Positions 5,443-21,164 of a stretch of 33,980 nucleotides of DNA are shown here, in pieces. This stretch comes from Sulfurimonas sp. MAG313 (lineage in GTDB: Bacteria; Campylobacterota; Campylobacteria; Campylobacterales; Sulfurimonadaceae). Location: assembly GCF_029216045.1 (NCBI RefSeq), contig NZ_JAEMVE010000121.1, positions 1 through 33,980 of the forward strand. Reading direction: 5' to 3'. The translations under genes were made by a program, and so were the position numbers. Below the pieces are notes generated by a model. The model searched no databases. It worked only from the letters and a program-made list of their open reading frames with translations, and was not told the origin of the DNA. Each line of letters begins with the position of its first letter. Positions within the stretch are counted from its first letter, which is position 1.

Positions 5443-7062
5443 TTAGGACAAAGATAACTTTTGTATAGACTTAAGTGCCTCTTCTAAGGGTTCTAGAGCA
5501 AGACCTTCTTCTTTCATTAAGGTGTAAATTTCTTCGCTAAGGCTGTTAGAAATACTTGCATCACTATCTACTAAGGCATATACAATAAAATTAGCAATCG
5601 CTAAAGGTTTTATTTCTAAGGGCGCGTCTTGGGGACTTGAGCTGTACCGTATTGCATCTATTAGGTCTTTTTTTAAATGCCAAGAGGACAAAATATCAGA
5701 ACTTACATAGGTACAATTAGTATGAAGTAGCTCTTCTTCTGCTGCTTTATAACCAATAGATTGAGTAAGTTCTATAAATTTTGCCTCAAGTTGTAAATTA
5801 TGTAATTCACTTGAGATAAGCAGTTGGCCCAAGTTGCCTAAAATGGCACTTGAACTCAGTATGCCTAATTTTGACATATCTACATTTTTATACCAAAGGT
5901 TCATCAGACTTAAACGAAGTGTACCCACCTTTGAAAATTGTTTTTCTTGTATTTGATACGCATCTAAATTTAGTTTTCCCATGCATTGAGACATAATTCC
6001 AAAGGAAAGGGCTTTCACCGTCTTTTTACCAAAGGTGCTTATAGCCTTATCTATGCTGTCCATTCCCTTTTTCAAACCATACATAGGATTAGAAGCAGCA
6101 TTTAATATCATACCAACAATAATAGAATCTTTTTTAACCACTTCAATGAGGTCAGCAATACTTGATTCTTCATCATCACATATACTTTGAATTTGCATTA
6201 CCGTGTTAGGTAGGGGTTCTAAGGTGTTAATAAAGGCATGAATCTTTTTATTTGTAATTAGAATACGGCGTTTTAAAAAGTTTGTATGAACCACGGAGAT
6301 GAGTTCACGTTTTAGATCTTTTCCCTTTATAGGATTATTTAGGATATGCGTTATTCCCTTTTCTGAAAGCTGTAATAAGAGTCGATGACTGGGTTTATTT
6401 AAGATAAAGATAAAAGCAGCATCTAAATGTTTTTGAATATAATCTTGATAAGGTTTTATATCTTCTTTTTCTAAATTTACAATGGTAATAGCAGGAGTAG
6501 TTCCTTCTATATAAGAGTCTAAACTTTCTTTAGATTTGCCAAATGCTACCGAAGCCATTGTCTTATCTAAGGCACTCACAATGATACTCGCTCTTTTTTT
6601 ATTGTCATCTATATATAAACAAGATAAACTTCTTAACTTCTTCGCAGGGCTTTCATTGACAGCAGTTACTTTGATATTAATATTTAGGTCTTTATTATAT
6701 TCACTTAACACTGTTGCATCTTCCATCTCTTCTACCCAAAGACAAAACTGATCTTTTACCTTGTGCAACCATAAATGTATCCCCTCATCATGAATAGCGC
6801 TTAATCCACGAAGACCATTTAAAACATTTTCAACCTTTGACACGAGCTCGTTCATATTTCCAAGACCAAGATACGCAGTAGAGGCCTTATAATTATGGAA
6901 CATTCTAAAAAGCTCATCAATCCTTTGCTTATAACCCTGAGAGAAATGAAGTTCATTTATATTGTTAATCATTAAAGGAAGTTGAGATAGGCATTGATCT
7001 TTAAACATAGTAAAAAGCTCTTGAAACAGAGCATCATCCATATAATCTACTGCTTTTGCCAT
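5443..7062 (-). CDS. HDOD-domain protein with Hpt-like and receiver-like N-terminal domains
   Basis: 539 residues, no membrane segment. Residues about 20-110 resemble a histidine phosphotransfer domain: LFRMFHNYKASTAYLGLG has the Hpt pattern with H56 as the phospho-acceptor candidate. Residues about 145-265 look like a degenerate receiver fold (LSCLYIDDNKKRASIIVSAL, no clear phospho-Asp). Residues about 275-480 are an HDOD domain (LPPLP-type LEPLPNTVMQIQ, ASNPMYGL). HDOD domains lack the HD metal site and act in signalling. It is the last gene of the chemosensory set, about 70 bases after the 68-residue gene, so it may be an output of that pathway. The domain order is by eye; the receiver-like call is the weakest. 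Confidence 0.75.
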   Translation of the reverse strand: MAKAVDYMDDALFQELFTMFKDQCLSQLPLMINNINELHFSQGYKQRIDELFRMFHNYKASTAYLGLGNMNELVSKVENVLNGLRGLSAIHDEGIHLWLHKVKDQFCLWVEEMEDATVLSEYNKDLNINIKVTAVNESPAKKLRSLSCLYIDDNKKRASIIVSALDKTMASVAFGKSKESLDSYIEGTTPAITIVNLEKEDIKPYQDYIQKHLDAAFIFILNKPSHRLLLQLSEKGITHILNNPIKGKDLKRELISVVHTNFLKRRILITNKKIHAFINTLEPLPNTVMQIQSICDDEESSIADLIEVVKKDSIIVGMILNAASNPMYGLKKGMDSIDKAISTFGKKTVKALSFGIMSQCMGKLNLDAYQIQEKQFSKVGTLRLSLMNLWYKNVDMSKLGILSSSAILGNLGQLLISSELHNLQLEAKFIELTQSIGYKAAEEELLHTNCTYVSSDILSSWHLKKDLIDAIRYSSSPQDAPLEIKPLAIANFIVYALVDSDASISNSLSEEIYTLMKEEGLALEPLEEALKSIQKLSLS

Positions 7063-7134
7063 TACAGTACTCGTAATTCTAAATAAATATTAAATCCATA
7101 TGAACCTGAAAATTAAAAAGATTGGACAATGATT

Positions 7135-7341
7135 TCAAAACTTTACCCTGACATAAATATTAAAATTTCCAAACTCATTTTTGAGCTCAAATGTATGTTT
7201 TTTACAGAACTCTAAATGCATCTTTGCTAAGAGCCTATTGGCCTCAGCCTCAGCCTTTTCTTTATCTTCAAATTCTTGTTTTTCAGGTAAAGCTCTTTTT
7301 ATAGCACACGAACAGGCATTTTTTATTTCTACATAATGCAT
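7135..7341 (-). CDS. Small conserved-looking protein of unknown function
   Basis: 68 residues beginning MHYVEIKNACSCAIKRALP. The central part (KEKAEAEANRLLAKMHLEFCKKH) is likely a charged helix, flanked by beta-like ends (HYVEIK and FNIYVRVKF). Three cysteines are present (two as CSC) but no metal-site pattern I recognise. AAGGAGA stands 9 bases before the start, which supports translation. It lies 21 bases after the preceding ORF and in the same direction, so it is part of the chemosensory transcript. No function can be assigned. Confidence 0.65.
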   Translation of the reverse strand: MHYVEIKNACSCAIKRALPEKQEFEDKEKAEAEANRLLAKMHLEFCKKHTFELKNEFGNFNIYVRVKF

Positions 7342-7362
7342 AAGTCAATCTCCTTATCACGT

Positions 7363-7821
7363 TTAAAAATCAAAGATATCGTCCATGTCTTCTTCACTAG
7401 CATCTGAATCATCTGCATGTAACATAGCGCAAATGGTTTGTGTATTCGCCACAATTGTATCGTCCATAAAATTCAAAGAAGGGGCCCCCTCATAAAAGGT
7501 CATGTTAAACCAAGATTGCAGATCCGAAACAAAGGCTGAACTTAAAGAAGATAAATCTTTAGCAATTTCTTGAAATCTTTGTGAATTTTCATTGATACCA
7601 TCACTTAAGGAGCTTAAGGCTACTGAAATAGCGTAAGATTCCGTATAGGAGCCAAGACTTCTAGAAAGTGCTTTTAAATACTGTGCTATTTGTCCCACTT
7701 CAGAAGGGTCAATCTCTGAGCTTCCTAAAATCAACATAACTGAAGTCAATTCACCCAAAAGTTCTTTAACATCTTCTAAGTCATCGGCTTCCATATAATG
7801 ATACACTTCATATTCATTCAC
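7363..7821 (-). CDS. Unknown domain, probable C-terminal part of the upstream response regulator (-1 frame)
   Basis: 152 residues from a GTG at 7821, but the frame is open upstream to 7896 and reads sensible protein (KETPKVAEVEIITPALSSKN) back to a poly-A run inside the preceding response-regulator gene. The region is mostly helical and acidic (ELLGELTSVMLILG..., SLSSAFVSDLQSWF, ending DMDDIFDF) with no recognised family. No good ribosome binding site precedes 7821. I think it is the C-terminal part of a single protein of about 437 residues joined by a -1 frameshift; a separate protein from the GTG cannot be excluded. Confidence 0.6.
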   Translation of the reverse strand: MNEYEVYHYMEADDLEDVKELLGELTSVMLILGSSEIDPSEVGQIAQYLKALSRSLGSYTESYAISVALSSLSDGINENSQRFQEIAKDLSSLSSAFVSDLQSWFNMTFYEGAPSLNFMDDTIVANTQTICAMLHADDSDASEEDMDDIFDF

Positions 7822-7862
7822 ATTTTTAGAAGACAGTGCGGGTGTGATAATTTCAACTTCTG

Positions 7863-8675
7863 CTACCTTAGGTGTTTCTTTTTTGGACTTTCTTCTTCAA
7901 TCGGACTGACCTCTTTAAGCAATTTAAAACAAAGTTTTTCTTCGTTATATTTAAAGTCTTTAATTTCTTTATTCTTTTTCATAATCAGTTTAATCACCAT
8001 TTCACCTACTACATCTATGCGATTAATAGTAAAGTAAATAGCGTCATTATCACCTTCAACAATAATCCAAGGTTCCCCTTTTAGCGAGATGATAGCTTCT
8101 CCTACGGCAAAGGTAGCCCGAACAACATCAGAAAGTCCATCAATTTTTTGTGACACATCTCTTAAAAGATAATATTCCCAAAACTCGGCCAAGGCTTCTT
8201 CATCACTCACATAAAAGATGGTTTGACGTTTTAAAATCTCATTACTGTATAAGTTAGCTGCCTTTCTATGTGCAGAAAGGCTTCCATGGGCACGAAGTTT
8301 TAAAAGAGAAAAATAACTGTCTAAACGAGCATTTAAAAGTTTTATATCTATAGGCTTAGGGACATAATCTTCTGCCCCATTTCTAAGTATCTCTTTTTGT
8401 TGAAGTTCATCATCTACCGCGGACACGGCAATAATCATAACTTCTTTATTTCGTGCGCGAATTTTCTTTGTGGCTTCGATACCATTCATCTCCGGCATCA
8501 TAATGTCCATAAATATGATATCAAAGTCTGCTCTATTGGCCTTATTTACCGCTTCAAGACCATTTTCACATTCAACAATATCATACACTGCATTTTTTTC
8601 TTCACCATAGTCTTGAAGCATAAGCTTTAAAACCATTCTGTTATTGGCATTATCATCAACAATTAAAATATTCAT
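7863..8675 (-). CDS. Response regulator with N-terminal receiver domain
   Basis: 270 residues. Residues 1-120 form a complete receiver domain: acidic pair D7/D8, phospho-acceptor D57 in FMDIMMPEMNG, the switch Ser/Thr in AVSAVDD and lysine in YVPKPID. Residues 120-255 form an alpha/beta region (EALAEFWEYYLLRD, TFAVGEAIISLKGEPW) not matching a DNA-binding output domain; it may be a degenerate ATPase-like or protein-binding fold. The frame ends after SPKKKHLR* just past an A AAA AAG heptamer, and the -1 frame continues into the next ORF. AAGGG precedes the ATG. The gene follows parA after a 97-base AT-rich gap and belongs to the chemosensory set. Confidence 0.85.
   Translation of the reverse strand: MNILIVDDNANNRMVLKLMLQDYGEEKNAVYDIVECENGLEAVNKANRADFDIIFMDIMMPEMNGIEATKKIRARNKEVMIIAVSAVDDELQQKEILRNGAEDYVPKPIDIKLLNARLDSYFSLLKLRAHGSLSAHRKAANLYSNEILKRQTIFYVSDEEALAEFWEYYLLRDVSQKIDGLSDVVRATFAVGEAIISLKGEPWIIVEGDNDAIYFTINRIDVVGEMVIKLIMKKNKEIKDFKYNEEKLCFKLLKEVSPIEEESPKKKHLR
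7878..7884 (-). promoter_or_regulatory. Candidate -1 frameshift site (A AAA AAG heptamer)
   Basis: On the minus strand the heptamer reads A AAA AAG in the phase required (CCA AAA AAG in frame 0), the same slippery sequence as E. coli dnaX. The -1 frame is open only from 7896 and frame 0 stops at 7863, so the heptamer is inside a 31-base window where a shift would join both ORFs. No strong downstream hairpin was identified by eye. A mutation or sequencing error in the A6 run is the alternative. Confidence 0.5.
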
Positions 8676-8772
8676 TATTTCCCTTGAAAAGTACTTATAT
8701 ACTATATGCTATCATAATATTTAGTTATTTATTTTTGAAATTCTTTACTTAACATATAAACTTTAACAAATC

Positions 8773-9570
8773 TTATTTAAGAGCACCTCTAAAAGACCTC
8801 TGAGTGAATATAGAGTTTTCAGAGGTTCCCTTAATTCTCTTAAGAAGTTCTTTACAAAAGCTTGTATAGTTTTTCATACCCTTGGTCCGAGTTTCACTCA
8901 AAACGATAGGTTGACCCGATTCAAACATCTGTGCTAATTTAATATCCATCCCAATGGGCTTAAAGACTTTAGCTTTTCCAAAGGCACCTTCTACTTTTGC
9001 CAAAGACTCTTTGTGCTCATTTATATGAGGGTTAAACATAACAGGTAACATCCCAATATGCTCAATATTAGCCCCCATCTGTGTCGACATCTGATACACC
9101 GCTCTAACCATTTGTCCCACCGCTACAACACCGAGATGATGAGGAACAAAAGGGATAACAACCACGTCAGCAACTTCTAAAGAGTTTTTTAAGAGGGCAT
9201 CAAAGGTAGGAGCAGTGTCAATTACACAGTAGTCAAAGAACTCAGCTATCTGCTCTTTTTTAAATCTATTTTTTAAAACACCTTTGAGGTCTGAATATTC
9301 ATAAACATCAAACAAGGCGTGAGCAGGAGCTAAGGTAAGTCCATCTAAGACAGTAGGTACAAAGTTTTCACTTAATGTTTTTCCAAAAAAGATACTATGG
9401 GCACCCCCTTCTTCTAAAGGAGCTGATCCTACTCCAATAGAAGCATGACCTTGCGTGTCAAAATCTATAAGTAACACAGAATGATTTTTAGCGAGTTCCG
9501 TAGCAAGGTTTACTGCAGTAGTGGTTTTTGCCGATCCACCTTTTCGGTTTGATATAACGATTGTTTTCAT
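8773..9570 (-). CDS. ParA/Soj-type ATPase of the chemosensory cluster
   Basis: 265 residues. The N-terminus is a deviant Walker A motif (KGGSAKTTT, signature lysine K10 and K15), followed by Walker A' (LLIDFDTQGHAS, D36 and D38) and Walker B-like YCVIDTAPTFD. This is the ParA/MinD superfamily: ATP-dependent dimers that bind DNA or membrane and position cargo. No parB or parS is nearby. It lies between chemotaxis genes, 102 bases after the STAS gene, so the best comparison is ParA proteins that place chemotaxis clusters (PpfA in Rhodobacter, ParC in Vibrio). The start at 9570 has AGGA at good distance, and its ATG overlaps the stop of a 24-codon ORF that copies its first ten codons. Confidence 0.9.
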   Translation of the reverse strand: MKTIVISNRKGGSAKTTTAVNLATELAKNHSVLLIDFDTQGHASIGVGSAPLEEGGAHSIFFGKTLSENFVPTVLDGLTLAPAHALFDVYEYSDLKGVLKNRFKKEQIAEFFDYCVIDTAPTFDALLKNSLEVADVVVIPFVPHHLGVVAVGQMVRAVYQMSTQMGANIEHIGMLPVMFNPHINEHKESLAKVEGAFGKAKVFKPIGMDIKLAQMFESGQPIVLSETRTKGMKNYTSFCKELLKRIKGTSENSIFTQRSFRGALK

Positions 9571-9641
9571 TGTTTAGTCCTGAAACATCGCTTCGCGACC
9601 GCCTCGGCTTGTTTTCGGTTAGATATTACTATTGTCTTCAT
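9567..9641 (-). pseudogene. 24-codon ORF duplicating the first ten codons of parA
   Basis: The ORF reads MKTIVISNRK then QAEAVAKRCFRTKQ and stops at a TGA that overlaps the parA ATG (ATGA). Its first ten codons encode exactly the ParA N-terminus but differ from parA at four third positions, all synonymous (AAG/AAA, ATA/ATC, GTA/GTT, TCT/TCA). This suggests the remnant of a second, diverged parA that was deleted down to its 5' end. The part after codon 10 is GC-rich and unrelated. It could now act as a coupled leader for parA. Confidence 0.55.
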
Positions 9642-9671
9642 GTAAGCCCTAGTATATACAAACAGCTATAA

Positions 9672-9932
9672 CTAACAATCAGCAGGGCTGAAGCCTTCTA
9701 TGATTTTTTGATAGTTTGTAATAGTGTCTGAAAATTTAAATGTGCAATTATACATCTTTTTATACGCAAGCATCTGCTGAATTACAGCTAAATGCACATC
9801 ATCACAATCTGTTAAATTAAATTCTAATTCCTCTGGAGCTAATTTAATCAGTTTTTTTCTTATTGTAGGAACTTGATCCTCATAAATCACCGCTTTTAAG
9901 GTGATTTTATTTGCCTTAGATGTCACTGCCAT
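9672..9932 (-). CDS. STAS-domain protein
   Basis: 86 residues, about the size of one STAS domain. The pattern is typical: a beta strand (KITLKAVIYEDQVPTIRKKL), then ELEFNLTDCDDVHLAVIQQMLAYKKMY, where the loop and helix after the second strand are the STAS hallmark, and a closing IIEGF. Such stand-alone domains act as switch or scaffold proteins. No conserved phospho-Ser is obvious, because the usual DSSG-type position reads DCDDVH. AAGGA precedes the ATG. It lies between cheW-CZB and parA, so it may link the array to the ATPase. A MlaB-like or CheX-like role is possible but unsupported. Confidence 0.65.
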   Translation of the reverse strand: MAVTSKANKITLKAVIYEDQVPTIRKKLIKLAPEELEFNLTDCDDVHLAVIQQMLAYKKMYNCTFKFSDTITNYQKIIEGFSPADC

Positions 9933-10021
9933 TGTCTATCCTTCATATCAATTTTATTCATAAAAACTTGAGACATACTCAACTTTTCATGAGGCTTACT
10001 TTTATTTTTACTTTAATGTCT

Positions 10022-10798
10022 TTACTCACTGTTTTTAAAAGGCATCATTTCATGTAAGATACTTACAAGCTTTCCGTTTACACTTAAGATAGCTTCTATA
10101 TCCATAAATTCTCCCATTGCTTGTCGGTCCTTACTGACATGTAATTCAGATTCTTCAACATGAACAATCTCTTCAACCTTGTCAATATTGAGTCCGAAAT
10201 TATTTCCTTCTTTATCTAAAAGAACTAAACATTGTTGCATGTCAACCGCCACTTCAGATGAAAGTTTTTGTATATCATCAAGATAAGACAAGGTTGTTTT
10301 ACATATATCTTGCACATTGTTTTCTATCCAGGCATGGGCTTTTTCTTGACTTTCATCTCTTAAGTCCAGGACATCTAGTGCACTATGATGCAATTGTTCA
10401 TGATGATAAGTAAGATGTTTCATTGTTTCAACTATTTTTGTATTATCAGGGTGAAAAGAATCTATCCACTTTCCTAAATGACAGGCATGAGGATCAGTAG
10501 TCTTTGTAAAAGGGACATTTTTATCTACACAATCAACAAGAGCGTCTATCCAATCTTGATGCTGACCTTTTAGCTCAGGAAAAAATTCTTGAAGCTGCAA
10601 GGCGTAAGATTTCTTTCCCAAAAGGTGTCTTAAACTCACTACCTTCAAAATTTCTTCTTCATACATGAACATACCTTCTATATGTTCTTCTTCTCCTGAC
10701 ATTAACGTCAGATTTTGTGAAGATAATATTCTTAAAACATAATCTATATTTATGCCATAAAGTTGATGGTCACACGAAAAAATCACATAAGACTTCAT
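10022..10798 (-). CDS. CheW-like coupling protein with embedded zinc-binding CZB domain
   Basis: 258 residues. Residues 1-70 are the first half of a CheW fold (YVIFSCDHQLYGINIDYVLRIL). Residues about 76-145 are a CZB (chemoreceptor zinc-binding) domain with candidate ligands H80 (HQDW), C106 (CHLGKW) and H133/H137 (HEQLH). The CheW fold resumes from about 185 (CLVLLDKEGNNFGLNIDKVEEIV) to the end. CZB domains in chemoreceptors bind zinc and can sense oxidants such as HOCl through the cysteine. Placing the sensor in the coupling protein would feed the signal straight to CheA. The start overlaps the stop of the CheA C-terminal frame by ATGA (10795-10798). Confidence 0.85.
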   Translation of the reverse strand: MKSYVIFSCDHQLYGINIDYVLRILSSQNLTLMSGEEEHIEGMFMYEEEILKVVSLRHLLGKKSYALQLQEFFPELKGQHQDWIDALVDCVDKNVPFTKTTDPHACHLGKWIDSFHPDNTKIVETMKHLTYHHEQLHHSALDVLDLRDESQEKAHAWIENNVQDICKTTLSYLDDIQKLSSEVAVDMQQCLVLLDKEGNNFGLNIDKVEEIVHVEESELHVSKDRQAMGEFMDIEAILSVNGKLVSILHEMMPFKNSE

Positions 10799-11307
10799 AC
10801 CACTTCCCCTAAGGGCACTTGAAGTTCAGAACTTACAGATAAGAGTCCAACAGGGTCTATCATCATAATAATTTTTCCATTTCCAAGAAGCGCTGTTCCT
10901 GAGAACACCTGATGACCTTTTAACATTCCCCCTAATGGTTTTTGAACAACATCAAGTTGACCTAAAAGCTTATTTACAACAACGGCTAAAGAGTTGCCTT
11001 TGATATTTAATACCACTATGCTTAATTCTTTTTCTTTAATTTCATCTAAATCAAGCATTGAGTTGATGAAAAGCAAGGGAATGACCTCTCCTCTTAGATA
11101 AATAAAAGCCTCATTATGAAGCGGTTCAATCTTGTCTTTATCTATTTTAACAGTTTCTTGAACCGCGTCCATAGGAAAGCCATAATGCACCCCACTCATC
11201 TCAACATGAAGTAAAGACGTTACCGCTAAAGAAACAGGTATAGCCATAGTAATAAGCGTTCCCTCATCTTTTTTTAGTTGAGATAGAGATAGAACCACCA
11301 AAGCCAT
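10795..11307 (-). CDS. cheA: CheW-like P5 regulatory domain of CheA, separated from CheA by a frameshift
   Basis: From K12 onward the reading is the normal continuation of CheA after the ATPase domain (KKDEGTLITMAIPVSLAV, then the CheW-like fold HYGFPMDAVQETVKI ... GNGKIIMMIDPVGLL). The first eleven residues (MALVVLSLSQL) merely read cheA out of frame, so 11307 is not a convincing start. The frame meets cheA at an A7 run (11269-11275). If translated separately, the ATG at 11247 (MAIPVSLAV), with GAGGG about 12 bases upstream, is the best internal start. P5 binds CheW and receptors, so without it CheA would not join an array. Confidence 0.8.
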   Translation of the reverse strand: MALVVLSLSQLKKDEGTLITMAIPVSLAVTSLLHVEMSGVHYGFPMDAVQETVKIDKDKIEPLHNEAFIYLRGEVIPLLFINSMLDLDEIKEKELSIVVLNIKGNSLAVVVNKLLGQLDVVQKPLGGMLKGHQVFSGTALLGNGKIIMMIDPVGLLSVSSELQVPLGEVV

Positions 11308-13495
11308 CTATAGACTTTTTAACCACGTCCATTCCTACACCACGACCAGAAAATTCGGTAATTTCTTCAGCGGTAGATAGTCCTGCTAATAATACAAGCT
11401 CAGCCCTACCATTTTCATCAAGGTCATCAATTTCTTCCATACTCATAAGGCCTTTTTCTATCACCTTTTGAATCACTCTGTCCACATTAATACCAGCGCC
11501 ATCATCTTTAATCTCAATAATAATCTTATCCGATTGAGAGTAGGCCTTAAGGGTAACATTTCCTTCTGGAGACTTCCCCTTAGCTTCTCTCTCACTTGGT
11601 AACTCGATACCATGGTCAAGAGAGTTTCGCATAATATGGATCATAGGGTCCGCCATCATCTCAATAATATTTTTATCAAGCTTAGTATCGCCCCCTTCCA
11701 TAGTCAGCTTTACCTTTTTTTCTAACTTTTTAGAAATATCACGTACAAGCTTTGGATATCTATCAAATACATAAGAGATAGGAAGCATACGCATAGACAT
11801 AATTAAGTCTTGCAGTTGTTCGGACAAACGATTTATGAAGGTGTACTTTTCCATAATTCCACGTTTCGTTTCTTCATCACTCATATCCTCAACTGAATCT
11901 GCTAAATAGGGTAAAGAGTTTTTGGCTACTAAGAGTTCTCCAATAATATTCATTAAAGAGTCAACAGATTCTTGTTCAATCTTCACCGTCTTACCAATAA
12001 CATTTTTCTTAGTTTCGGCTTTAACAGGAGCTTTACTGAGCACAGGACTTACCTGTGATTTTTCTTCTGGCTGTGCTTTTGGTGCAGGCGTTTGCACCCT
12101 AACACTTTCTTTAAGCTCAGGATTAGAAGAAACATCTTCTGTAATCTCTTCTACAGCTTCTTCTGTCTCTGCATCTGGAGTAAGTAAGGTTTTCATAAAA
12201 CTAAGAAGCTCATCCTTAGACGTGATAGAACTAGAATCCTCACCAAACATCACGGCTGTTTTAGCAACCATAACTTGCACACGAGTAAACACTTCTTCAT
12301 CATCGCTGGCTTCAAGCTGTTGCATTTGTTGGGTCAAAATCATCTTAATACCAGCAAGGGCATTTTCATCTAATGTCGCTTTGCCTTCTTCTTTTACAGG
12401 TTCTTCTTTCTCTTCACTCAAGGAAACATCTTCTAATTGTGTAAAAACTGTACCCTCACTTAGTCCATCAAAGAAACTTGCTAAAGGGGCAAGGTCATCA
12501 TTACATTGTAAAATATCTATAAAACGACTTAATTGTGCATACTGAAGAGTCTCTTCACCAATAAGAGACAAAGAATCTTTTATAAGTGTTTTAATCTGCT
12601 CTTTGTCTGAGTTTGCTAGTTCTTTTTTAACATTAGTTGCTAAGTCTTTCATCACATCTAAGGGATGAACTTCTCCACGGCTTACGCCTAATAAAGTTTT
12701 AATGTCTAAGGGTAAAAAAAGCAGTTCATCCATAAAGTTAAATAAGGCTTCTTCTATATTGCTATATGAAGATTGAATAAAGGCTGTTATTTGCATATGA
12801 AGTTCTAATCCTTCTTCATCATCTAAACCACTTAGAACAGACTTTGCTGAATCTTCACTCATACATGAATATACATATTTAACACTATCACCCAATAAAG
12901 AGAGGGTATACGCCGGATCATTTCCATAAACCATACACGAAGCATCTACATCAAAAACTAAGGCATATAAACGTTCATCATCAAAATTTTCTTCTGTAAT
13001 ATCTTCAAATTCAATGGGTAATTTTAACTCAGGTAAAAAAGGTAGATTTAGATTAACTATGGCTTCTTTATCATCATACAGGTTTAAAGGAGAGGTCCAG
13101 GCCTCTTTTTCAGTACTTTTTCCCATACAAGCACATAAGGTTTCAACTATTTCAGAAACAGTTTCCTCATCTGATTCTACTATATTTTCCGCATCTTCAG
13201 CTGCTTCTATAAGATTCATTACCTCGTCAAAGGCATTATACAAGGCTTCAATAACGCCCTCATCTGCTTGGATTTCCCCATCTCTAACCATATCAAGTAA
13301 GTCTTCCGCGTGGTGTGTAATATCTTTTACAGCAGTAAAGCCAACGATACCTGAACCCCCTTTAAGGGTGTGCGCCGCTCTAAATACAGAATTAACTAAT
13401 TCCATATCCCCCGAACCAAGGCTTTCAATATTTTGATCAATAAAAGAAAGGTTTTCTCTAGCTTCTTGTAAAAATGATTCTAATAATGCGTCCAT
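11264..13495 (-). CDS. cheA: Chemotaxis histidine kinase CheA, frame interrupted before the P5 domain
   Basis: 743 residues to the in-frame stop; about 899 if joined to the following frame. Domains in order: Hpt/P1 at 1-105 with phospho-acceptor H42 (FRAAHTLKGGSG); a P2-like region about 170-285 (YALVFDVDASCMVYGNDPAYTL); a long acidic linker; the dimerisation helices near 510-575 (VDSLMNIIGELLVAKNSL); then the HATPase with N-box MIHIMRNSLDHGIE, G1 DDGAGI and G2 GRGVGMDVV. The frame ends GGSISISTKKR* where normal CheA would continue; removing one A from the A7 run restores it. An AAAGG precedes the ATG. It autophosphorylates and passes phosphate to CheY and CheB. Confidence 0.93.
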   Translation of the reverse strand: MDALLESFLQEARENLSFIDQNIESLGSGDMELVNSVFRAAHTLKGGSGIVGFTAVKDITHHAEDLLDMVRDGEIQADEGVIEALYNAFDEVMNLIEAAEDAENIVESDEETVSEIVETLCACMGKSTEKEAWTSPLNLYDDKEAIVNLNLPFLPELKLPIEFEDITEENFDDERLYALVFDVDASCMVYGNDPAYTLSLLGDSVKYVYSCMSEDSAKSVLSGLDDEEGLELHMQITAFIQSSYSNIEEALFNFMDELLFLPLDIKTLLGVSRGEVHPLDVMKDLATNVKKELANSDKEQIKTLIKDSLSLIGEETLQYAQLSRFIDILQCNDDLAPLASFFDGLSEGTVFTQLEDVSLSEEKEEPVKEEGKATLDENALAGIKMILTQQMQQLEASDDEEVFTRVQVMVAKTAVMFGEDSSSITSKDELLSFMKTLLTPDAETEEAVEEITEDVSSNPELKESVRVQTPAPKAQPEEKSQVSPVLSKAPVKAETKKNVIGKTVKIEQESVDSLMNIIGELLVAKNSLPYLADSVEDMSDEETKRGIMEKYTFINRLSEQLQDLIMSMRMLPISYVFDRYPKLVRDISKKLEKKVKLTMEGGDTKLDKNIIEMMADPMIHIMRNSLDHGIELPSEREAKGKSPEGNVTLKAYSQSDKIIIEIKDDGAGINVDRVIQKVIEKGLMSMEEIDDLDENGRAELVLLAGLSTAEEITEFSGRGVGMDVVKKSIDGFGGSISISTKKR

Positions 13496-13506
13496 AGTCT
13501 TGACCT

Positions 13507-13869
13507 TTAAGGAATTAAAATTAATAAATAGTTTTTGAGTACTTCAGGTTTAATAGGCTTGGTCTCAAAAAGATTAGCACCCATTTTAAAGGCTTCTTCC
13601 CTATCTTCATCATGAGCTTGTGTGGTAATCATAATGATAGGCGTTGTCTTATAACATTGAAGTTCACGTATCTCTTTAACAAAGGTATACCCATCCATGA
13701 TAGGCATATTCACATCAACAAGATAAAGGTCAACATCACAATCTTGACTTTTTTCCATGGCTTCCATACCATTTTCAGCCTCTACAACCTCATACCCCAT
13801 CTCTTTTAACAAAGATCCATGATACAGTCTTACTGTTTTTGAGTCGTCTACTACCATTACTCTTTTCAT
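13507..13869 (-). CDS. cheY: CheY-type single-domain response regulator (downstream copy)
   Basis: 120 residues, receiver domain only. D8/D9 hold magnesium, D52 (VDVNMPIMDG) is the phospho-acceptor, the switch Thr is in MITTQ near 82-83 and K104 is the conserved lysine (ETKPIKPE). It lies 11 bases before cheA and 12 after the CheZ-like gene, so it should be a direct CheA target. It differs clearly from the other CheY in this cluster, so the two may act on different outputs or one may be a phosphate sink. Confidence 0.93.
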   Translation of the reverse strand: MKRVMVVDDSKTVRLYHGSLLKEMGYEVVEAENGMEAMEKSQDCDVDLYLVDVNMPIMDGYTFVKEIRELQCYKTTPIIMITTQAHDEDREEAFKMGANLFETKPIKPEVLKNYLLILIP

Positions 13870-13881
13870 AAGCTTTTCCCT

Positions 13882-14271
13882 TTAAAAAAATTCAATTTCA
13901 TGTTCATCTGATTGGTTCTTAATATGCCCAGAAAAAGCATCTTTCTTATCCTTAGCCTCTTGTAACACGGCTTCCATTTTTTTACGTAACTTCAATACAC
14001 TTTCATCTGCCATCAGCTCATCTTGTTTAAAAGAATGGGCAAACATCTGTAAGTTTTTTTGAACCAGCTCAATTGCTTCGATTGTTGCACCCAACTGCTG
14101 AGAAACTATATCTTGATATTGCAGGGCTTCAGCAGCCTCATCATCTATCTCAATCTCGTTTCTTTCAATAAAAGAAGAAAGTTTCAACTGAGCCTCTTTA
14201 GAAATTGAAATCGTGTCTTTTTCAACCTGTTTAATATGTTCAAGTAAGTCATTTAATGAGTCAAATAGCAT
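13882..14271 (-). CDS. CheZ-like CheY-P phosphatase (remote)
   Basis: About 129 residues from the preferred ATG at 14271, which has AAAGGA five bases away; the frame also has an ATG at 14277 that abuts the ribosome site. The protein is all helical. The stretch ALQYQDIVSQQLGATIEAIELVQ resembles the CheZ catalytic helix, where an Asp and a Gln four residues apart (here D56 and Q60, counted from 14277) act on CheY-P. The C-terminus HEIEFF is acidic-aromatic, like the CheY-binding tail of CheZ. It sits between two cheY genes. It is much shorter than E. coli CheZ (214), so the call rests on the motif and context. Confidence 0.65.
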   Translation of the reverse strand: MLFDSLNDLLEHIKQVEKDTISISKEAQLKLSSFIERNEIEIDDEAAEALQYQDIVSQQLGATIEAIELVQKNLQMFAHSFKQDELMADESVLKLRKKMEAVLQEAKDKKDAFSGHIKNQSDEHEIEFF

Positions 14272-14305
14272 TTGCATCCTTTAAAGATTCTATGTACCTA
14301 CATGC

Positions 14306-14686
14306 TTATGCAGGTAAACGAAGTACTCTAGTGATAGCTGACTTTAACTGTGTCGGATTAAAAGGCTTGACTATCCACCCTGTTAAACCAAGGGCCTTAC
14401 CCTGCACCTTTAACTCATCTTTTGTTTCTGTTGTTAACATCAGTACCGGAGTTCTAGCCGTTGCAGGAAGGGATCGAAGCTCTTTTAAAAGTTCTAAACC
14501 ATTCATTACAGGCATATTTAAATCTGTTATTATTAAATCAGGAACGATGCCTGCTTTTACATCTGCTAAACATAATTGTGCTTCTAAGTACTGCTTAACT
14601 TCAATTGGCATTGAAGTTACGGTCATACGAGTTGACGCTAAAGCTGTTTCTGAATCATCTATAAACATTACCATTGGATTTGCCAT
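14306..14686 (-). CDS. cheY: CheY-type single-domain response regulator (upstream copy)
   Basis: 126 residues, receiver domain only: D10/D11, phospho-acceptor D55 (ITDLNMPVMNG), switch Thr in MLTTETK, and lysine in IVKPFNPTQL. The form with TDLNMPxMNGLEL and GWIVKPFNP is typical of dedicated chemotaxis CheY proteins. AAGGAT lies upstream of the ATG. It is the first CheY after cheR, separated by a 162-base spacer that carries a long palindrome, so its expression may be set partly apart from the genes upstream. Confidence 0.93.
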   Translation of the reverse strand: MANPMVMFIDDSETALASTRMTVTSMPIEVKQYLEAQLCLADVKAGIVPDLIITDLNMPVMNGLELLKELRSLPATARTPVLMLTTETKDELKVQGKALGLTGWIVKPFNPTQLKSAITRVLRLPA

Positions 14687-14750
14687 TTCTTATCCTTTTA
14701 ATCTTTCTTTTTTTATTTTTTATTTTTTACTATTTGGTGTCTTACTTTAT

Positions 14751-14804
14751 GGGGACACAGCTTAAAACTCATCCACAATGGGATAAAACTTAAGCTGTGT
14801 CCCC
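14751..14804. repeat. 54-bp palindromic element between cheR and cheY
   Basis: Perfect 15-bp terminal arms (GGGGACACAGCTTAA at 14751-14765, its complement at 14790-14804) enclose a second short stem (ATCC / GGAT) with a symmetrical 5-base bulge on each side. No T-run follows on either strand, so it is not an ordinary terminator. Its form resembles REP-type palindromes or a miniature inverted-repeat element. The flanking spacer (14687-14848) otherwise holds only A/T runs. Confidence 0.7.
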
Positions 14805-14848
14805 GCGACTAAGTTTATTACTATACTTATCTAAAGTTCGTTCTTGTG

Positions 14849-15670
14849 TCACTTCTGATAAATTAAAGACCCTCCGAATTTTTTGGCCTTAAACACAGAC
14901 ACGATTCGTGACATATATTCAGCGTGACCTAAAAACACAAATCCACCAGGTTTCAACATATCATAAAAGTTCATTGCTACCTCTTTTTTACTTGCATCAT
15001 CAAAATAAATAAGCATATTTCTTGAAAAGATAACATCGAATTTTCCTAATTCTCTTAAGGCCGCTCTATCAAATATATTCACTACCTTAAACTCAACAGT
15101 ACCCACTAAATCATCTATAAGATGATAACTCAGCCCCTTCTTTTTAAAATAATTTTGAACTTGAACAGGAGGGATAGCATGAACTGAGCGTTCAGAAAAT
15201 TTTCCATCTTGAGCTTTTTTAATAACAGTAGAATCTATATCAATACCAATTATTTCTATATCTCTTTCTTCTATAAGGTTCGCTTCTTCTAAGAGATAAA
15301 GAACCATAGAATAAGGTTCTTCTCCTGTTGAACATGGTGAAGACAAGATTCGTAAAGGCTCATCTTTTGGACGAGTTTTGTGAAGTAATGGTAAGACATC
15401 ATTCACTAATACTTCAAACTGATCATGTTCTCTAAAAAAGTACGTTTCATTAACGGTTACCGCGTTCATTAGTGTTTGAAACTCTATTCCATCAGGATCT
15501 TCAAATCTAAGGGTAAAAAAATACTTTCTGAAATTGTCTAGTTCAAGCTCATCCAAACGCGCTAAAACAAATTTATGTATCTTCTCATAATGTTTTGATT
15601 CTTCAAGAAAGATACCCGATTTTCTATAAATAAATTCTGATAATTTAGAAAAATTTCCTTCATTAAACAT
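14849..15670 (-). CDS. cheR: Chemotaxis protein methyltransferase CheR
   Basis: 273 residues, the normal length. CheR transfers methyl groups from SAM to receptor glutamates. The N-terminal helical domain (FSKLSEFIYRKSGIFLEESK) is followed by the SAM domain: NETYFFRE, then RILSSPCSTGEEPYSM (motif I region) near 107, an acidic IIGIDID strand end near 140, and FDVIFSRNMLIYF near 215. There is no C-terminal NWETF-tether partner to judge in this window. The start is two bases after the HEAT-repeat gene stop. With CheB it gives adaptation to the soluble receptor of the same operon. Confidence 0.96.
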   Translation of the reverse strand: MFNEGNFSKLSEFIYRKSGIFLEESKHYEKIHKFVLARLDELELDNFRKYFFTLRFEDPDGIEFQTLMNAVTVNETYFFREHDQFEVLVNDVLPLLHKTRPKDEPLRILSSPCSTGEEPYSMVLYLLEEANLIEERDIEIIGIDIDSTVIKKAQDGKFSERSVHAIPPVQVQNYFKKKGLSYHLIDDLVGTVEFKVVNIFDRAALRELGKFDVIFSRNMLIYFDDASKKEVAMNFYDMLKPGGFVFLGHAEYMSRIVSVFKAKKFGGSLIYQK

Positions 15671-15671
15671 A

Positions 15672-16295
15672 TTAAGCCTCTATTGATTCTATAGCTGCGT
15701 CTATTGCAAAAGCAGCGTAGGTTTCATCTTTAAAACGTTCTTTGACCTGACGTAAGAGCTCAATGTCTTGAGGTTCGCCTATTTCAGCCATATAATCAAC
15801 CGCAGTCATAGAAACATTGATGTTTTCTTCATTTTCTAAAAGTTCAACTAGCATTTCACGTGATTCAGCAAAGTTCACATCCCCTAAAACATTAATAGCA
15901 AAGATTCTAAGGTCATAATCATCCCCAATTAAAAACTTAACAATATAATATTTTATCTCTTTTCCATAATCTTGTAAGATGGAAATTCCAAGGTTTCGTA
16001 CAAAGGCATTTGAAAGTTTTAAAAGCTCCATAACCTGCTCTATGGGAGCAATTTTTGGATCAAGATTTGCCAATATAGCTGCAATTCTTGTAGCCGTATC
16101 CTTATGGGTATCATGTTCAATGAGCTTATCTACTAAAAAATGACTTCCTGAGTCAAAGGTCACCATCTCTTCTAAAGCATACGAACGTTTATCTAACTCT
16201 TCATTGTTTTCATAAAACATGATGGCTTCTTCTAAACTTACAAATTTAGGAAGTGGCTCTTGTTCTATTTTCTGGTCTCTTTTAATTAGTCCCAT
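15672..16295 (-). CDS. HEAT-repeat-like protein within the chemotaxis operon
   Basis: 207 residues, cytoplasmic, all helical. After a short charged N-terminus, residues about 40-205 show repeated pairs of helices typical of HEAT or PBS-lyase-like repeats: SNAFVRNLGISILQDYG, YDLRIFAINVLGDVN and NVSMTAVDYMAEIGEPQDIELL. Such repeats are scaffolds for protein contacts and no enzyme motif is seen. It is tightly packed between cheB (15 bases) and cheR (1-base gap), so it is likely an accessory part of the adaptation machinery or array. The exact partner is unknown. Confidence 0.7.
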   Translation of the reverse strand: MGLIKRDQKIEQEPLPKFVSLEEAIMFYENNEELDKRSYALEEMVTFDSGSHFLVDKLIEHDTHKDTATRIAAILANLDPKIAPIEQVMELLKLSNAFVRNLGISILQDYGKEIKYYIVKFLIGDDYDLRIFAINVLGDVNFAESREMLVELLENEENINVSMTAVDYMAEIGEPQDIELLRQVKERFKDETYAAFAIDAAIESIEA

Positions 16296-16310
16296 ATTTT
16301 CTCCTGTCTT

Positions 16311-17357
16311 TTACTTATACGAAATAATTTTTTCTACAATATCTTTAAAGTCTAACATTTGACATGTTCCACCTCTTTTAAAGGCTTCTTGAGGCATGCC
16401 AAAAACCGTACATGATTCTTCTGATTCCGCTACTGTGTATCCACCTGCTTCTTTGATAGCTACCATCCCATCAGCTCCATCATCTCCAATACCCGTAAGT
16501 AAGATACCAAATATCTTAGAAGGATCAAAGATTTTGAGTGCTGAGAAAAACATTTCATCAACAGAAGGTTGAAAAAAACGTTTATTTTTATCTTTTTCTT
16601 CAAAGGTGACTATCTTTCCTGAGGTCTTTTTTCTAAAATGAAGGTGCACACCCCCCGAAGCAAGATAAATATGCCCTGGTAACAATTCATCATTGGTAGA
16701 CGTATGATGGACCGGTAGTTGCGTAACCTTAGCTAAACGTTCCGCAAAGGCAAGGGTGAATTGTTCCGGCATATGCTGAACGAAACATACCGGATGAGGA
16801 TAGTTTAGAGGTAAAGAAGCGACGATTTCTTCAACAAGTCTGGGTCCTCCGGTAGAAACACCAATCAAAATAAGCTTATCTAATTCACCCTCAAAAGGGA
16901 CTTCATTAGGCTCTGCCTTTCTTACTTTTGGCACGGATGAAAGGTTTGGTGACTTTAAACGTCTTTTAGGAATACGAGAAAGTGACTTTATTTTTTGAAT
17001 AATATCTTCACCACTTTCAGCCACGCCCACATTCATAGTCCCTGGTTTAAGTACAAAGTCTATAGCCCCATATTCCATCGCTTCTATCGTAACAGAAGCA
17101 TTTTCAGAGGTTAATGAACTTACCATTAAAATAGCAGTAGGATTTTCTTGCATAATCTCTTTAACTGCTGAAATTCCATCAAGAACGGGCATATTAATAT
17201 CCATAGTGATAACATCATAATCTGTGGCTAAAGCCTTATCAATGGCTTCTTGTCCATTTTTAGCAGTGTCTATTTCAAAATCAAGATCTTGAATAAGACC
17301 CTTTAATTGTTTTCGCACTAGGGCAGAGTCATCTACAATTAATATTTTTTTACTCAT
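16311..17357 (-). CDS. cheB: Protein-glutamate methylesterase/deamidase CheB
   Basis: 348 residues. The N-terminal receiver domain has D9/D10 and phospho-acceptor D53 (TMDINMPVLDG). After a linker (about 120-155) comes the methylesterase domain with catalytic Ser in IGVSTGGP near 167, His in FVQHMPEQF near 194 and Asp in LLTGIGDDGADG near 290. It removes receptor methyl groups after phosphorylation by CheA. Its start overlaps the stop of the triple-CheW gene by four bases (ATGA), so the two are translationally coupled. Confidence 0.97.
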   Translation of the reverse strand: MSKKILIVDDSALVRKQLKGLIQDLDFEIDTAKNGQEAIDKALATDYDVITMDINMPVLDGISAVKEIMQENPTAILMVSSLTSENASVTIEAMEYGAIDFVLKPGTMNVGVAESGEDIIQKIKSLSRIPKRRLKSPNLSSVPKVRKAEPNEVPFEGELDKLILIGVSTGGPRLVEEIVASLPLNYPHPVCFVQHMPEQFTLAFAERLAKVTQLPVHHTSTNDELLPGHIYLASGGVHLHFRKKTSGKIVTFEEKDKNKRFFQPSVDEMFFSALKIFDPSKIFGILLTGIGDDGADGMVAIKEAGGYTVAESEESCTVFGMPQEAFKRGGTCQMLDFKDIVEKIISYK

Positions 17358-18760
17358 GCCGCCTCCTCTTTGTTAAGTTCTAAAGAAGAAAAAAGTCTGA
17401 TCGTATCAAACATCATAACCAATCGCTTACCTTTTTCTAACTGCAAGATAGAGTTAAACAGACCTTTTCCATCATCTTCATCTTTAATCTCTTCAGCTAC
17501 AATGCCTCTTACATCATTTACCTTATCTACCACAAAGCCAACGCGATTTTTATTGACCTCCGTGACAATGATTTGTTGATCTATATCTTCATTTTCTTGG
17601 AGTGTTAATATGGCATATAAAGAGGCAATGCTGATAACTTGACCCCGAATATTTATCACCCCTTTAATATGTTCTAAGGTATCTGCCACAGGAGTAATTT
17701 CTGTAATATCAATAATTTCAGACACATCATCTATATTAAAGGCATACTCTTCACCACCCATTTGGAAAATAACAACTTCTAAATCAACCTTTTCTTCATT
17801 TGAGGCCTCTTCTTCATTTGCTTCTTTATCACTAATAAGATGGGCTTGATCACGTACAAGAGTCTTAATAATATCAGGGTTAACGATACTTATAAGCTTC
17901 TCATTAATATGTAAGACCCCGTTTATTTTTTTATCTTTAAAGTTTTCTGGCATACCTTCAATCATCGAGGTTTCAACATCTTGAATATCCACAATATCGT
18001 CTACCACTAAGCCTATATGTTTATCCTGATACTGAGAAACAATAATCCTATTTTTTTCGGTTCGCTCATTATTAAAATCATAATATTCTCTTAAATCAGC
18101 CACAACAAGAAGGTCATCTCTTAAAGATATCATTCCCACTATCTCTTTATTACTTTCCGCAATAGCCGTAAAGTTTTCAGGTAAGGCAATAATTTCTCGA
18201 ATTGAATCAACCTCAAGCGCGTACTGTTCTTCTCCCATAATAAAAAATAAAAACCTTTTAAGATTAGAATTAAGTCCCGCTTCATCTAAGTCTGAATTCA
18301 TATCGCGCACATCTTTTGAAACATACGAAGGAAGCGCAATGTCTTGAATCAATCTTTCAATACTAATGACTTGAATAATGTCATCCTCATATTTCAAAAG
18401 AGCGACAATAACATCATCTTGATCTTCAACATACTCCATATCGTCTTGATTAGCTTCAATAGAATTAATAACCTCAGAAACTAAGAGTGAAAAGTGATGA
18501 CTTTCAGTAGTTATACTGACTTGTCTCGCCTTAAAATTTTCATTTAAAACAGGTTTTTTTCGTCCATCTAAAAGGGTAGAAAAATCCAGCACAGAAATAA
18601 TAGAACCTTCAATAGAACATAAACCGCGTATGGCCTTAGGTGTCATTGCCATAGGGGTTATATCTAGAACGCGTAAAATCTGTTCAACCTCATTAGTATT
18701 TATTCCATAAAAGCAGTCTTGCTCTTTTATAATTAAGACCTCTTCAATAATATCTGCCAT
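17354..18760 (-). CDS. Coupling protein with three CheW domains
   Basis: 468 residues made of three consecutive CheW-like domains: about 1-150 (EVLIIKEQDCFYGINTNEVEQIL), 165-305 (RFLFFIMGEEQYALEVDSIREII) and 318-460 (EVVIFQMGGEEYAFNIDDVSEII). The third carries the most canonical IKGVINIRGQVI loop; the second has VGMISLRDDLL. CheW domains bridge receptors and the CheA P5 domain. A triple protein could link several receptors or CheA units in one array. No CheY-like domain is attached, so it is not CheV. It starts 5 bases after the receptor gene and overlaps cheB. Confidence 0.92.
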   Translation of the reverse strand: MADIIEEVLIIKEQDCFYGINTNEVEQILRVLDITPMAMTPKAIRGLCSIEGSIISVLDFSTLLDGRKKPVLNENFKARQVSITTESHHFSLLVSEVINSIEANQDDMEYVEDQDDVIVALLKYEDDIIQVISIERLIQDIALPSYVSKDVRDMNSDLDEAGLNSNLKRFLFFIMGEEQYALEVDSIREIIALPENFTAIAESNKEIVGMISLRDDLLVVADLREYYDFNNERTEKNRIIVSQYQDKHIGLVVDDIVDIQDVETSMIEGMPENFKDKKINGVLHINEKLISIVNPDIIKTLVRDQAHLISDKEANEEEASNEEKVDLEVVIFQMGGEEYAFNIDDVSEIIDITEITPVADTLEHIKGVINIRGQVISIASLYAILTLQENEDIDQQIIVTEVNKNRVGFVVDKVNDVRGIVAEEIKDEDDGKGLFNSILQLEKGKRLVMMFDTIRLFSSLELNKEEAA

Positions 18761-18765
18761 GATAC

Positions 18766-20646
18766 TTATCCTTGTTGAAGTTCATCTGCCATAACCGCTA
18801 ACTCTTCAACACCCTCTCCTACATGAGAAATCGTGTCAATTATGAGTTCTGAAGCTTTTTTAGATTCCATTGCATTTTTAGCAGAAAGCTCTACTGCTTT
18901 TTGAATTTCACTCACTCCAATAAGCACAGACGATAAACCTTCAAGATTTTGATCATTTATGACCTTTAAGCCTGTATATCTATCCAGAAGTTCTACCAGC
19001 ATATCAATAATTTTATCCATCTCAGCAGTCAAATCATCAAGACGTTTTTTCTCTGTACCTTGACCAACAAGAAGTTGGCCCCAGTCGTCTTGAACCATAC
19101 CAATTTCTGCGTTCATACCCTCGATAGTGTCGTTAATCTTTTCTGTGTTTGATTCAGAATCTTTAGCAAGGGAACGAATATCAGCTGAAACAACCGCAAA
19201 CCCTTTTCCAAACTCACCCGCTCTAGCTGCCTCAATAGAACCAGAAATTGCAAGCATATTTAACTGAATAATAGAATTAGAAATATTTCCAACGGTTTTA
19301 TCTACATTTTTTGTTTCTTTAACAATGACAACAAGTTCATCACTTGCGCCCTTTCCCTCAGTAACAGAATTACTAATTTCTGTGTTAATCTCTACCATAG
19401 AACCTTTTACCACACTAAAAGAAACCTTTAACAAGTCAAAGTTTCGTCGAGCAATTTCTATAAGCTTGTCGATATCTTGAGCCGCTGAAATCCCGCCTTC
19501 TATACTTTCTTTGTTGGATAAGGCGGACTTGTTGGTTGAATGAGAAGATGCTTCAATCTCTTGAAGCGCTGTTGTAACTTGTTCAAGTCCCGCTTGAATT
19601 TCTTCCATCGACCCACCAATAGTATCCGCGGTAGCAGCAATATCTTCGGCTGATTTAGCCGTATCCGTAGAATACTTAAGCTCTTCAGCTAAATTAGAAA
19701 GAGCCTTAATATCTTTTTCTGTTTGAGAAAGAGCATTAGATTGCATCTCAATACCATTTAAAGTTTTTTCAACAGAAAGTGCTGCCTTTGATGAGGCATC
19801 CGCTATATTAGTAGAACCCTCTCCTACAGAACGCATAGCATTACCAAGATGTTGAGTATAAATAGAAACCGACTTCGCTGCTTCAACCGAATACACCGCA
19901 ATCTTGGTTAGTTCTTCCATTTTTAAACTCAGAGCACCTGAGGTTTCACCCGTTCCCACAATAATATCTGTAGTATTGATAATATTTTTGATAATAGAAT
20001 CAATACTTCCTTGAATCTTATTAACCAATTCGGAGATAAATTCTGCATTTTTCTCAGACTCAGCAGCCAAGGCTCTTGTTTCATCAGCAACAACCGCAAA
20101 GCCCTTACCATGTTCTTTTGCTCTAGATGCTTCAATAGCTGCATTTAATGCAAGTAAATTTGTTTGGTCGGCAATTTTAGCAATAAATCCAACCGCTTCA
20201 CCAATATTTTGAGAACTTGCTTTAAGCTCTTCTGATTTTGTAGAAGACGACCTTGCAATATCTACCGCGCCAGTCATCCGTTCAACAGAACCATTAATAA
20301 CAGATACCGCGTTAATAATAGTATCACCCGTAGCTAAGGTGGAATTAATAACCGTGTCAATGTTGGATGTCATTCTATTAATATTGTTATTAATGTCTTT
20401 TACATTCGTTAAGGCTTGTTCAGACGCCCCTGAATTTTCTTCCGCCGCCGTTGCAATTTGCTCCATTGAAGACTTTAACTGCTCTATCGCGGAAACGGAT
20501 TCTTGAGCATTATCTAAGATATTACTGGCAATACCTGAGATGCTTTCAGAAATCTGTTGTTGTTTAGCCAAGGTTCTTTGGCGTCTTTTATCTGTTCCCC
20601 CCGAAGGTGCAACACTTTTTGATGAATTTGTTTTTACTAATGCCAT
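18766..20646 (-). CDS. Soluble methyl-accepting protein with two signalling tips
   Basis: 626 residues with no membrane segment, HAMP or sensor domain. After a basic N-terminal tail (KRRQR at 20-24) the protein is long coiled coil. A canonical tip lies at about 155-200 (ADQTNLLALNAAIEASRAKE, HGKGFAVVADETRALA). A second, divergent tip lies at about 460-505 (IIQLNMLAISGSIEAARAGE, FGKGFAVVSADIRSLAKDS). The first would bind CheW and CheA. The second keeps the turn but has QLN for QTN and SGS for NAA. It likely receives input from the PAS protein encoded upstream or from CheW-CZB. The start is clear, with AAGGAAACC just upstream. The double-tip form is uncommon. Confidence 0.92.
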   Translation of the reverse strand: MALVKTNSSKSVAPSGGTDKRRQRTLAKQQQISESISGIASNILDNAQESVSAIEQLKSSMEQIATAAEENSGASEQALTNVKDINNNINRMTSNIDTVINSTLATGDTIINAVSVINGSVERMTGAVDIARSSSTKSEELKASSQNIGEAVGFIAKIADQTNLLALNAAIEASRAKEHGKGFAVVADETRALAAESEKNAEFISELVNKIQGSIDSIIKNIINTTDIIVGTGETSGALSLKMEELTKIAVYSVEAAKSVSIYTQHLGNAMRSVGEGSTNIADASSKAALSVEKTLNGIEMQSNALSQTEKDIKALSNLAEELKYSTDTAKSAEDIAATADTIGGSMEEIQAGLEQVTTALQEIEASSHSTNKSALSNKESIEGGISAAQDIDKLIEIARRNFDLLKVSFSVVKGSMVEINTEISNSVTEGKGASDELVVIVKETKNVDKTVGNISNSIIQLNMLAISGSIEAARAGEFGKGFAVVSADIRSLAKDSESNTEKINDTIEGMNAEIGMVQDDWGQLLVGQGTEKKRLDDLTAEMDKIIDMLVELLDRYTGLKVINDQNLEGLSSVLIGVSEIQKAVELSAKNAMESKKASELIIDTISHVGEGVEELAVMADELQQG

Positions 20647-20729
20647 ATGGGTTTCCTTATTTATTTATTTTTAGTTTTATACAACGTGAGATATCTCTGC
20701 ATTGTTTAAAATATACGTATTATTGAGTC

Positions 20730-21158
20730 TTAGTCTAAGGTAGCGTAAAGCTCTTCAGCTTTTTTAATATCTTCACGAGAAGGCTTAACCCGAATAGATA
20801 CATATTTAGTATTTCCATTTTTATCAACGGAACGCAGTACTGTGGCATACACCCAGTAAAAACCCCCACCTTTTCTAGAGTTTTTAACATATCCTGTCCA
20901 AAACCCCTTAGACTGAACATCATCCCAAAGTGACTTGAAAGCAGCTCTTGGCATTTCTGGATGGCGAACCACATTATGAGGTTGCCCATAAAGATCCGTT
21001 TGATCCATGTTAGCTATTTGCATGAAACCATCAGAAGCATAGGTAATAATCCCTTTTTCATCTGTTTCTGAAAGTAGGTATAAGGAATCATAAAGAACCT
21101 CACCATCATCTAAAAAAGTTAAACCTTCAGGGTCTAAAACATCTTTATTGTTTGCCAT
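20730..21158 (-). CDS. Single PAS-domain protein, Aer/CetB type
   Basis: 142 residues. One PAS domain fills most of the protein (SETDEKGIITYASDGFMQIANM ... NVVRHPEMPRAAFKSLW ... FWTGYVKNSRKGGGFYWVYATV), with the RHPEMP and GFYWV signatures of FAD-binding redox PAS domains such as Aer and Campylobacter CetB. In CetA/CetB the PAS protein passes the signal to a partner receptor, and here the next gene is a receptor lacking any sensor, so the same pairing is likely. GGAGA lies six bases before the ATG at 21158; the in-frame ATG at 21164 abuts it and is less likely. FAD binding is inferred. Confidence 0.9.
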   Translation of the reverse strand: MANNKDVLDPEGLTFLDDGEVLYDSLYLLSETDEKGIITYASDGFMQIANMDQTDLYGQPHNVVRHPEMPRAAFKSLWDDVQSKGFWTGYVKNSRKGGGFYWVYATVLRSVDKNGNTKYVSIRVKPSREDIKKAEELYATLD

Positions 21159-21164
21159 CGTCAT

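Follow-up and report, generated by a model that had tools for sequence, protein, structure and literature searches.

The window, by which we mean the whole stretch of 33,980 nucleotides analyzed here, comes from a draft genome of Sulfurimonas sp. MAG313 and encodes a complete chemosensory system of the F9 class, accompanied by an orphan ParA ATPase, on its minus strand between position 21164 and about 7363. The class is assigned by the domain make-up of the receptor (DosM) and of the triple CheW adaptor (CheW3), and by the gene content of the cluster. We consider it probable that this system forms a flat, two-layer array in the cytoplasm, that a PAS protein provides its input, and that the orphan ParA spreads the arrays or shares them between daughter cells. 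Overall, both the class of the system and the kind of companion that it has are known, whereas the lineage and the make-up are new.

Gene content and class of the cluster

The genes occur in the order PAS, receptor, CheW3, CheB, HEAT, CheR, CheY, CheZ-like, CheY, CheA, CheW-CZB, STAS, ParA and REC-helical protein. The receptor (18766 to 20646) contains a tandem pair of MCP signaling domains and has neither a sensory domain nor a membrane segment, as judged from Pfam matches, an AF2 model and hydropathy (the maximum over 19 residues is 1.23), which confirms the prediction of a receptor without membrane helix; a fold search with DosM returned only generic receptor and coiled-coil matches. The adjoining adaptor (17354 to 18760, 468 aa) consists of three CheW stretches (E = 2e-68). 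Both proteins had been recognized in the original prediction as a receptor and a CheW, but the two signaling domains of the former and the triple nature of the latter had been missed. Pfam further identifies CheB (16311 to 17357), a HEAT-repeat protein (15672 to 16295, family HEAT_2), CheR (14849 to 15670), two CheY (14306 to 14686 and 13507 to 13869), and a CheW with an inserted CZB zinc-binding domain (10022 to 10798).

CheA (10795 to 13495) is distributed over two frames, of which one (11264 to 13495) encodes domains P1 to P4 and the other (10795 to 11307) domain P5. The latter had been listed originally as a separate CheW following CheA; reading of the junction reveals instead a one-base slip in a run of seven A near position 11275, which has split the P5 domain off. 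The positions and the strand given in that first list of genes are otherwise correct, but the list omitted both the HEAT-repeat protein and the last gene of the cluster (7363 to 8675), whose product consists of a receiver (REC), an alpha/beta domain of unknown type and a helical domain. This gene is also split, into 7863 to 8675 and 7363 to 7821, by a one-base slip in a run of six A at about position 7865. Since in relatives CheA and the REC protein are each encoded by one intact frame, the splits in the window are read as assembly errors or recent slips, and they are probably the former.

Between the two cheY genes, a position that is conserved, lies the gene for a helical protein (13882 to 14277) that we call CheZ-like as a guess based on its QDIVSQ motif; a search for family-level matches to this protein found none. 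A gene on the same strand just beyond the cluster (5443 to 7062) encodes a protein with an HDOD domain and a weak N-terminal Hpt match, and adjoins grpE-dnaK. It had been proposed as a new part of the array, a proposal that we rejected, as no counterpart was found in any of 42 related loci; we regard it as a neighbor of the cluster.

The DosM and CheW3 domain make-up is the signature of the F9 class (PMC9321776). Here the two occur in the same cluster together with a full set of CheA (frameshifted in the window and intact in relatives), CheY, CheB and CheR, and the genome also holds another chemosensory class and flagella: a second CheA is encoded on contig C12, and reading frames for FlhF, FlhG, a FliA-like protein and FliM are found on contig C243. 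The cluster itself contains no flagellar gene, as predicted, and no parB. Its receptor, described earlier as the only one, is indeed the only one within the cluster, but the genome has 14 other receptor loci, one of which also encodes a receptor without membrane helix.

Cluster I of Vibrio cholerae, also of the F9 class, resembles the cluster of the window in having a soluble receptor with two signaling domains, a triple CheW, CheA, CheB, CheR and CheY, and in sharing the cell with a second chemosensory class and flagella; by comparison with its description, the orphan ParA, the detached Aer-type PAS protein, the CheW-CZB, the CheZ-like protein and the REC protein are additional here. The F9 arrays of V. 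cholerae are cytoplasmic, flat and double-layered, and are stabilized by DosM (PMC9321776, PMC7534058). By analogy, DosM rods with a signaling tip at each end would assemble with CheW3 and CheA into a flat two-layer array lying free in the cytoplasm. In a published survey of Campylobacterota F3, F7, F14 and F9 sets are present, with F9 represented by partial sets only (PMC9321776); full F9 sets, which together with ParA are spread over Sulfurimonadaceae and related families, therefore look unreported in the phylum.

Proposed input and output proteins

The first gene of the cluster (20730 to 21164) encodes a stand-alone PAS protein, whose best PDB match is the PAS domain of E. coli Aer (E = 2e-28), and it adjoins the DosM gene in Campylobacterota clusters. 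F9 arrays are thought to need sensors separate from the receptor (PMC9321776); since DosM has no sensory domain, the PAS protein is the best candidate for the input and, judging from its similarity to Aer, probably delivers a flavin-based redox signal to the array. The CheW-CZB protein might also contribute to the input. There is a precedent for this arrangement in CetB of Campylobacter, a separate PAS protein beside CetA (PMC2628428). The likeness with the CetA/CetB pair of C. jejuni, and with Aer, lies in the Aer-type PAS, which here as in CetB is a separate protein beside a receptor; the difference lies in the partner, which would be the soluble DosM here and is the membrane receptor CetA there.

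On the output side, CheA would phosphorylate the two CheY, with adaptation provided by CheB and CheR, and the CheZ-like phosphatase and the STAS-type protein (9672 to 9932) would also act at this level. For homologues of the latter, the match to STAS_2 is weak and stays under the curated cut-off. The STAS-type protein had been regarded as a new component of such arrays, a notion that does not hold up: F9 clusters from other phyla likewise have a gene for a small STAS-type protein immediately behind cheA, and a STAS protein in this position is expected to have a role like that of CheS (PMC12654446). CheS of Sinorhizobium meliloti is likewise a STAS-only protein encoded in the che cluster beside cheA; it binds CheA and aids the dephosphorylation of CheY, whereas the protein of the window is likened to it by position and by a weak domain match.

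The REC protein has no relatives in Pfam, NCBIfam or PDB for the domains beyond its receiver. The order of strands and helices led us to consider a degenerate RsbW-like ATPase, which was not supported. The C-terminus of the REC protein is DDIFDF, a nearly invariant motif that survives even the loss of the helical domain (L068). Receivers with this ending form a family in Campylobacterota (L061:5306-6619, L164:3013-4116, L180, L181), with several paralogues in the genome of the window, one of which sits near a receptor gene. In NORP14, the closest relative, the gene has an internal deletion (L044/L060 13531-13898), and no orthologue was found within the examined clusters of G004 and G005; this gene therefore seems to decay in the genus.

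Co-occurrence of ParA and DosM

A query with the ParA of the window (8773 to 9570, Pfam AAA_31) over named genomes retrieved 29 loci, 28 of them from Campylobacterota (Sulfurimonas, Sulfuricurvum and relatives) and one from Rhizobium sp. G21. Dozens of loci in Campylobacterota share the gene order, and its DosM-to-ParA part recurs in Methylosinus, Methylobacterium and Rhizobium sp. G21; the Methylosinus and Methylobacterium plasmids have the series DosM, CheW3, CheB, HEAT, CheR, CheY, CheA, small STAS-type protein, ParA. Sphaerotilus, Eleftheria, Azospirillum and a Rhizobium plasmid carry F9 clusters that include the small STAS-type protein but no ParA.

In a sample of 299 genomes at the level of the order, DosM was found in 14 and a ParA of the F9 type in 10; 8 genomes have both, 6 DosM only, 2 ParA only and 283 neither (Fisher p = 9e-11, uncorrected for relatedness). 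All 13 near relatives with DosM have a ParA orthologue, and within Campylobacterota the ParA distances track those of the cluster genes (r = 0.65-0.84). To the question raised by the original prediction, whether this parA and the soluble receptor always occur together, the answer is that the association is strong but has exceptions. In G251 the cluster is present and the STAS gene is followed directly by a histidine kinase gene, with no room for ParA; the single-contig genome G116 encodes a DosM, as does G313, and the only ParA matches in either are weaker ones of Soj type. Conversely, the draft genome G028 (99% complete) has a series of STAS, ParA, histidine kinase and REC genes, and neither DosM nor CheW3 was found in it. 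In G044 and G047 both ParA and DosM are present, but unlinked. It follows from the F9 arrays without ParA (those of G251, G116 and G313, and the clusters of Sphaerotilus, Eleftheria and Azospirillum) that ParA is dispensable for the class. Full F9 sets with and without a dedicated ParA in Campylobacterota constitute a natural contrast, which makes the question of partitioning directly testable.

ParA proteins encoded in che operons without ParB are already known (PpfA; Hamer 2010). A count over 206 species published in 2010 found them in 77, of which 86% also had a putative cytoplasmic receptor (PMC2829493), so that the association of ParA with che genes is known in general. The PpfA/TlpT cluster of Rhodobacter sphaeroides is similar to that of the window in having a ParA in a che operon without ParB, a soluble receptor and a cytoplasmic array, but its CheA is split into CheA3 and CheA4. 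TlpT is described with one signaling domain. The ParA of the window shares with PpfA the location in a che operon without ParB and is distinct from Soj; it is mostly, but not constantly, paired with the soluble receptor, and the receptor tail is not confined to the systems that have ParA. The Walker A motif is KGGVGKT in PpfA (PMC9178275) and KGGSAKT here. HpParA uses four lysines for binding DNA (PMC11229316); of the corresponding positions in the ParA of the window three are basic and one lysine is lost, while the others vary across the family.

As the F9 arrays of V. cholerae are cytoplasmic and the ParA travels with the cluster without being of the Soj or plasmid type, the idea of a cytoplasmic array encoded together with an orphan ParA is supported. 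By analogy with PpfA in Rhodobacter, this ParA probably positions the array or apportions it when the cell divides: in its ATP form it would bind the nucleoid and spread the arrays, so that each daughter receives one.

The N-terminal tail of DosM

The basic tail of DosM comprises residues 1-31, with KRRQR at residues 20-24, as originally noted. In the AF2 model the receptor consists of four helices (16-175, 180-323, 329-476 and 480-625) and residues 1-17 are disordered. DosM N-termini start with MALVK(K), followed by a variable linker and by KRRxRTLAKQQ, and this pattern is kept at 32% overall identity. HEAT N-termini begin similarly (MALVKKH, MALIKRD, MGLVRKK; MGLIKR in the window). A simple N-terminal pattern is matched by 31 of 32 DosM and 25 of 27 HEAT sequences; of the three exceptions, the DosM owes its mismatch to a mis-called start (the annotated one gives MALIKK), and both HEAT sequences read VALVNR. 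By comparison, each of eleven other gene families of the cluster has 0 to 2 matches, and the background is 48 of 359 ORFs, mostly DosM and HEAT themselves. The peptide (window 18766-20646 and 15672-16295; loci L044-L056, L088-L094 and L119-L133) is common to DosM and HEAT in Campylobacterota, alpha- and betaproteobacteria, with or without ParA.

From these sequences we infer that the MALVKK-like N-terminus could dock both proteins to a common partner, and the peptide is a tangible starting point in the search for an interaction that is still missing. A further reading that we can advance only tentatively is that the motif M-[AGSPT]-[LIF]-[VI]-[KR]-[KR] is a tag for one common partner and that F9 arrays would be assembled or positioned by it and not by a ParA-specific tail, ParA being an optional addition that may use the same tag.

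The original prediction saw in the tail a ParB-like peptide that activates this ParA. Conservation of the tail over very distant DosM is in line with this proposal, as is the use of basic N-terminal residues by activators of this ParA family (PMC11229316, PMC12462528). The comparison of DosM with and without ParA showed no difference in the expected direction: the mean net charge of the tail is 6.9 in seven DosM without F9-type ParA and 6.3 in twenty with it (for plasmids the absence of ParA was judged on the cluster, and a ParA may sit elsewhere in the genome). Since the tail is kept with equal or higher charge where this ParA is missing, it is a general feature of DosM that cannot be explained by ParA alone. 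Moreover, the model places KRRQR where the first long helix begins, outside the disordered part, and an LGRGL-like ParB motif is absent. We therefore rejected a ParA-specific peptide and consider activation of this ParA by the tail unlikely; ParA may make secondary use of an older tail.

On analogy with FrzCD of Myxococcus xanthus, the tail might instead bind the nucleoid directly, with ParA only modulating the mobility of the array or doing something else. FrzCD, too, is a soluble receptor, and its basic tail, made up of the first 30 or so residues, was shown to bind DNA (PMC5716589), and the tail of DosM is similarly basic independently of ParA. FrzCD differs from the system of the window in having one signaling domain and no dedicated ParA; furthermore, FrzCD tails vary, whereas in DosM the sequence itself (MALVKK, RTLAKQQ) is conserved, and not charge alone. 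We judge such a direct DNA role improbable, to the same degree as ParA activation.

Lineage and neighbors of the ParA

Two further alternatives to a ParA that distributes the arrays concern the ATPase itself. It might serve a module formed by the STAS protein, a histidine kinase and the REC protein with the DDIFDF end, rather than the array. The adjacency of STAS and ParA in all phyla seen points in this direction, as does the set of these genes in G028, although that genome is only a draft. This assignment is nevertheless quite unlikely, as G251 retains the array, STAS, histidine kinase and REC genes without a ParA between STAS and kinase, the REC protein occurs without ParA in several Sulfurimonadaceae, and the alphaproteobacterial clusters have ParA without that kinase/REC pair.

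Alternatively, an ordinary partition ATPase of a chromosome or plasmid might sit here by chance, as the ParA/Soj fold of the protein could suggest. This is very improbable, because parB is absent from the cluster, the only ParB of the genome adjoins its own Soj on another contig, and the protein belongs to a separate branch of the tree and has been retained in the F9 clusters of two phyla. In this tree, which covers F9-linked, Soj and plasmid ParA, the starred branch (95/99) sets the F9-linked proteins apart from Soj and from most of the plasmid proteins; the grouping with plasmid or chromosome ParA that would have contradicted the original prediction was thus not observed. A single origin of all F9-linked ParA is neither shown nor excluded by the tree (p-AU = 0.195). 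Among at least 5000 plasmid records, the best three matches to the ParA of the window are ParA genes of F9 clusters.

Two arrangements outside the full clusters were also observed. In G053, whose F9 set consists of DosM and CheW3 only, an orphan ParA gene (L146 4887-5624) adjoins rpsF-like and ssb-like genes; in G028 (L072/L129 6850-11661) a gene for a SpoIIE-type phosphatase adjoins those for STAS, ParA, histidine kinase and REC-DDIFDF protein.
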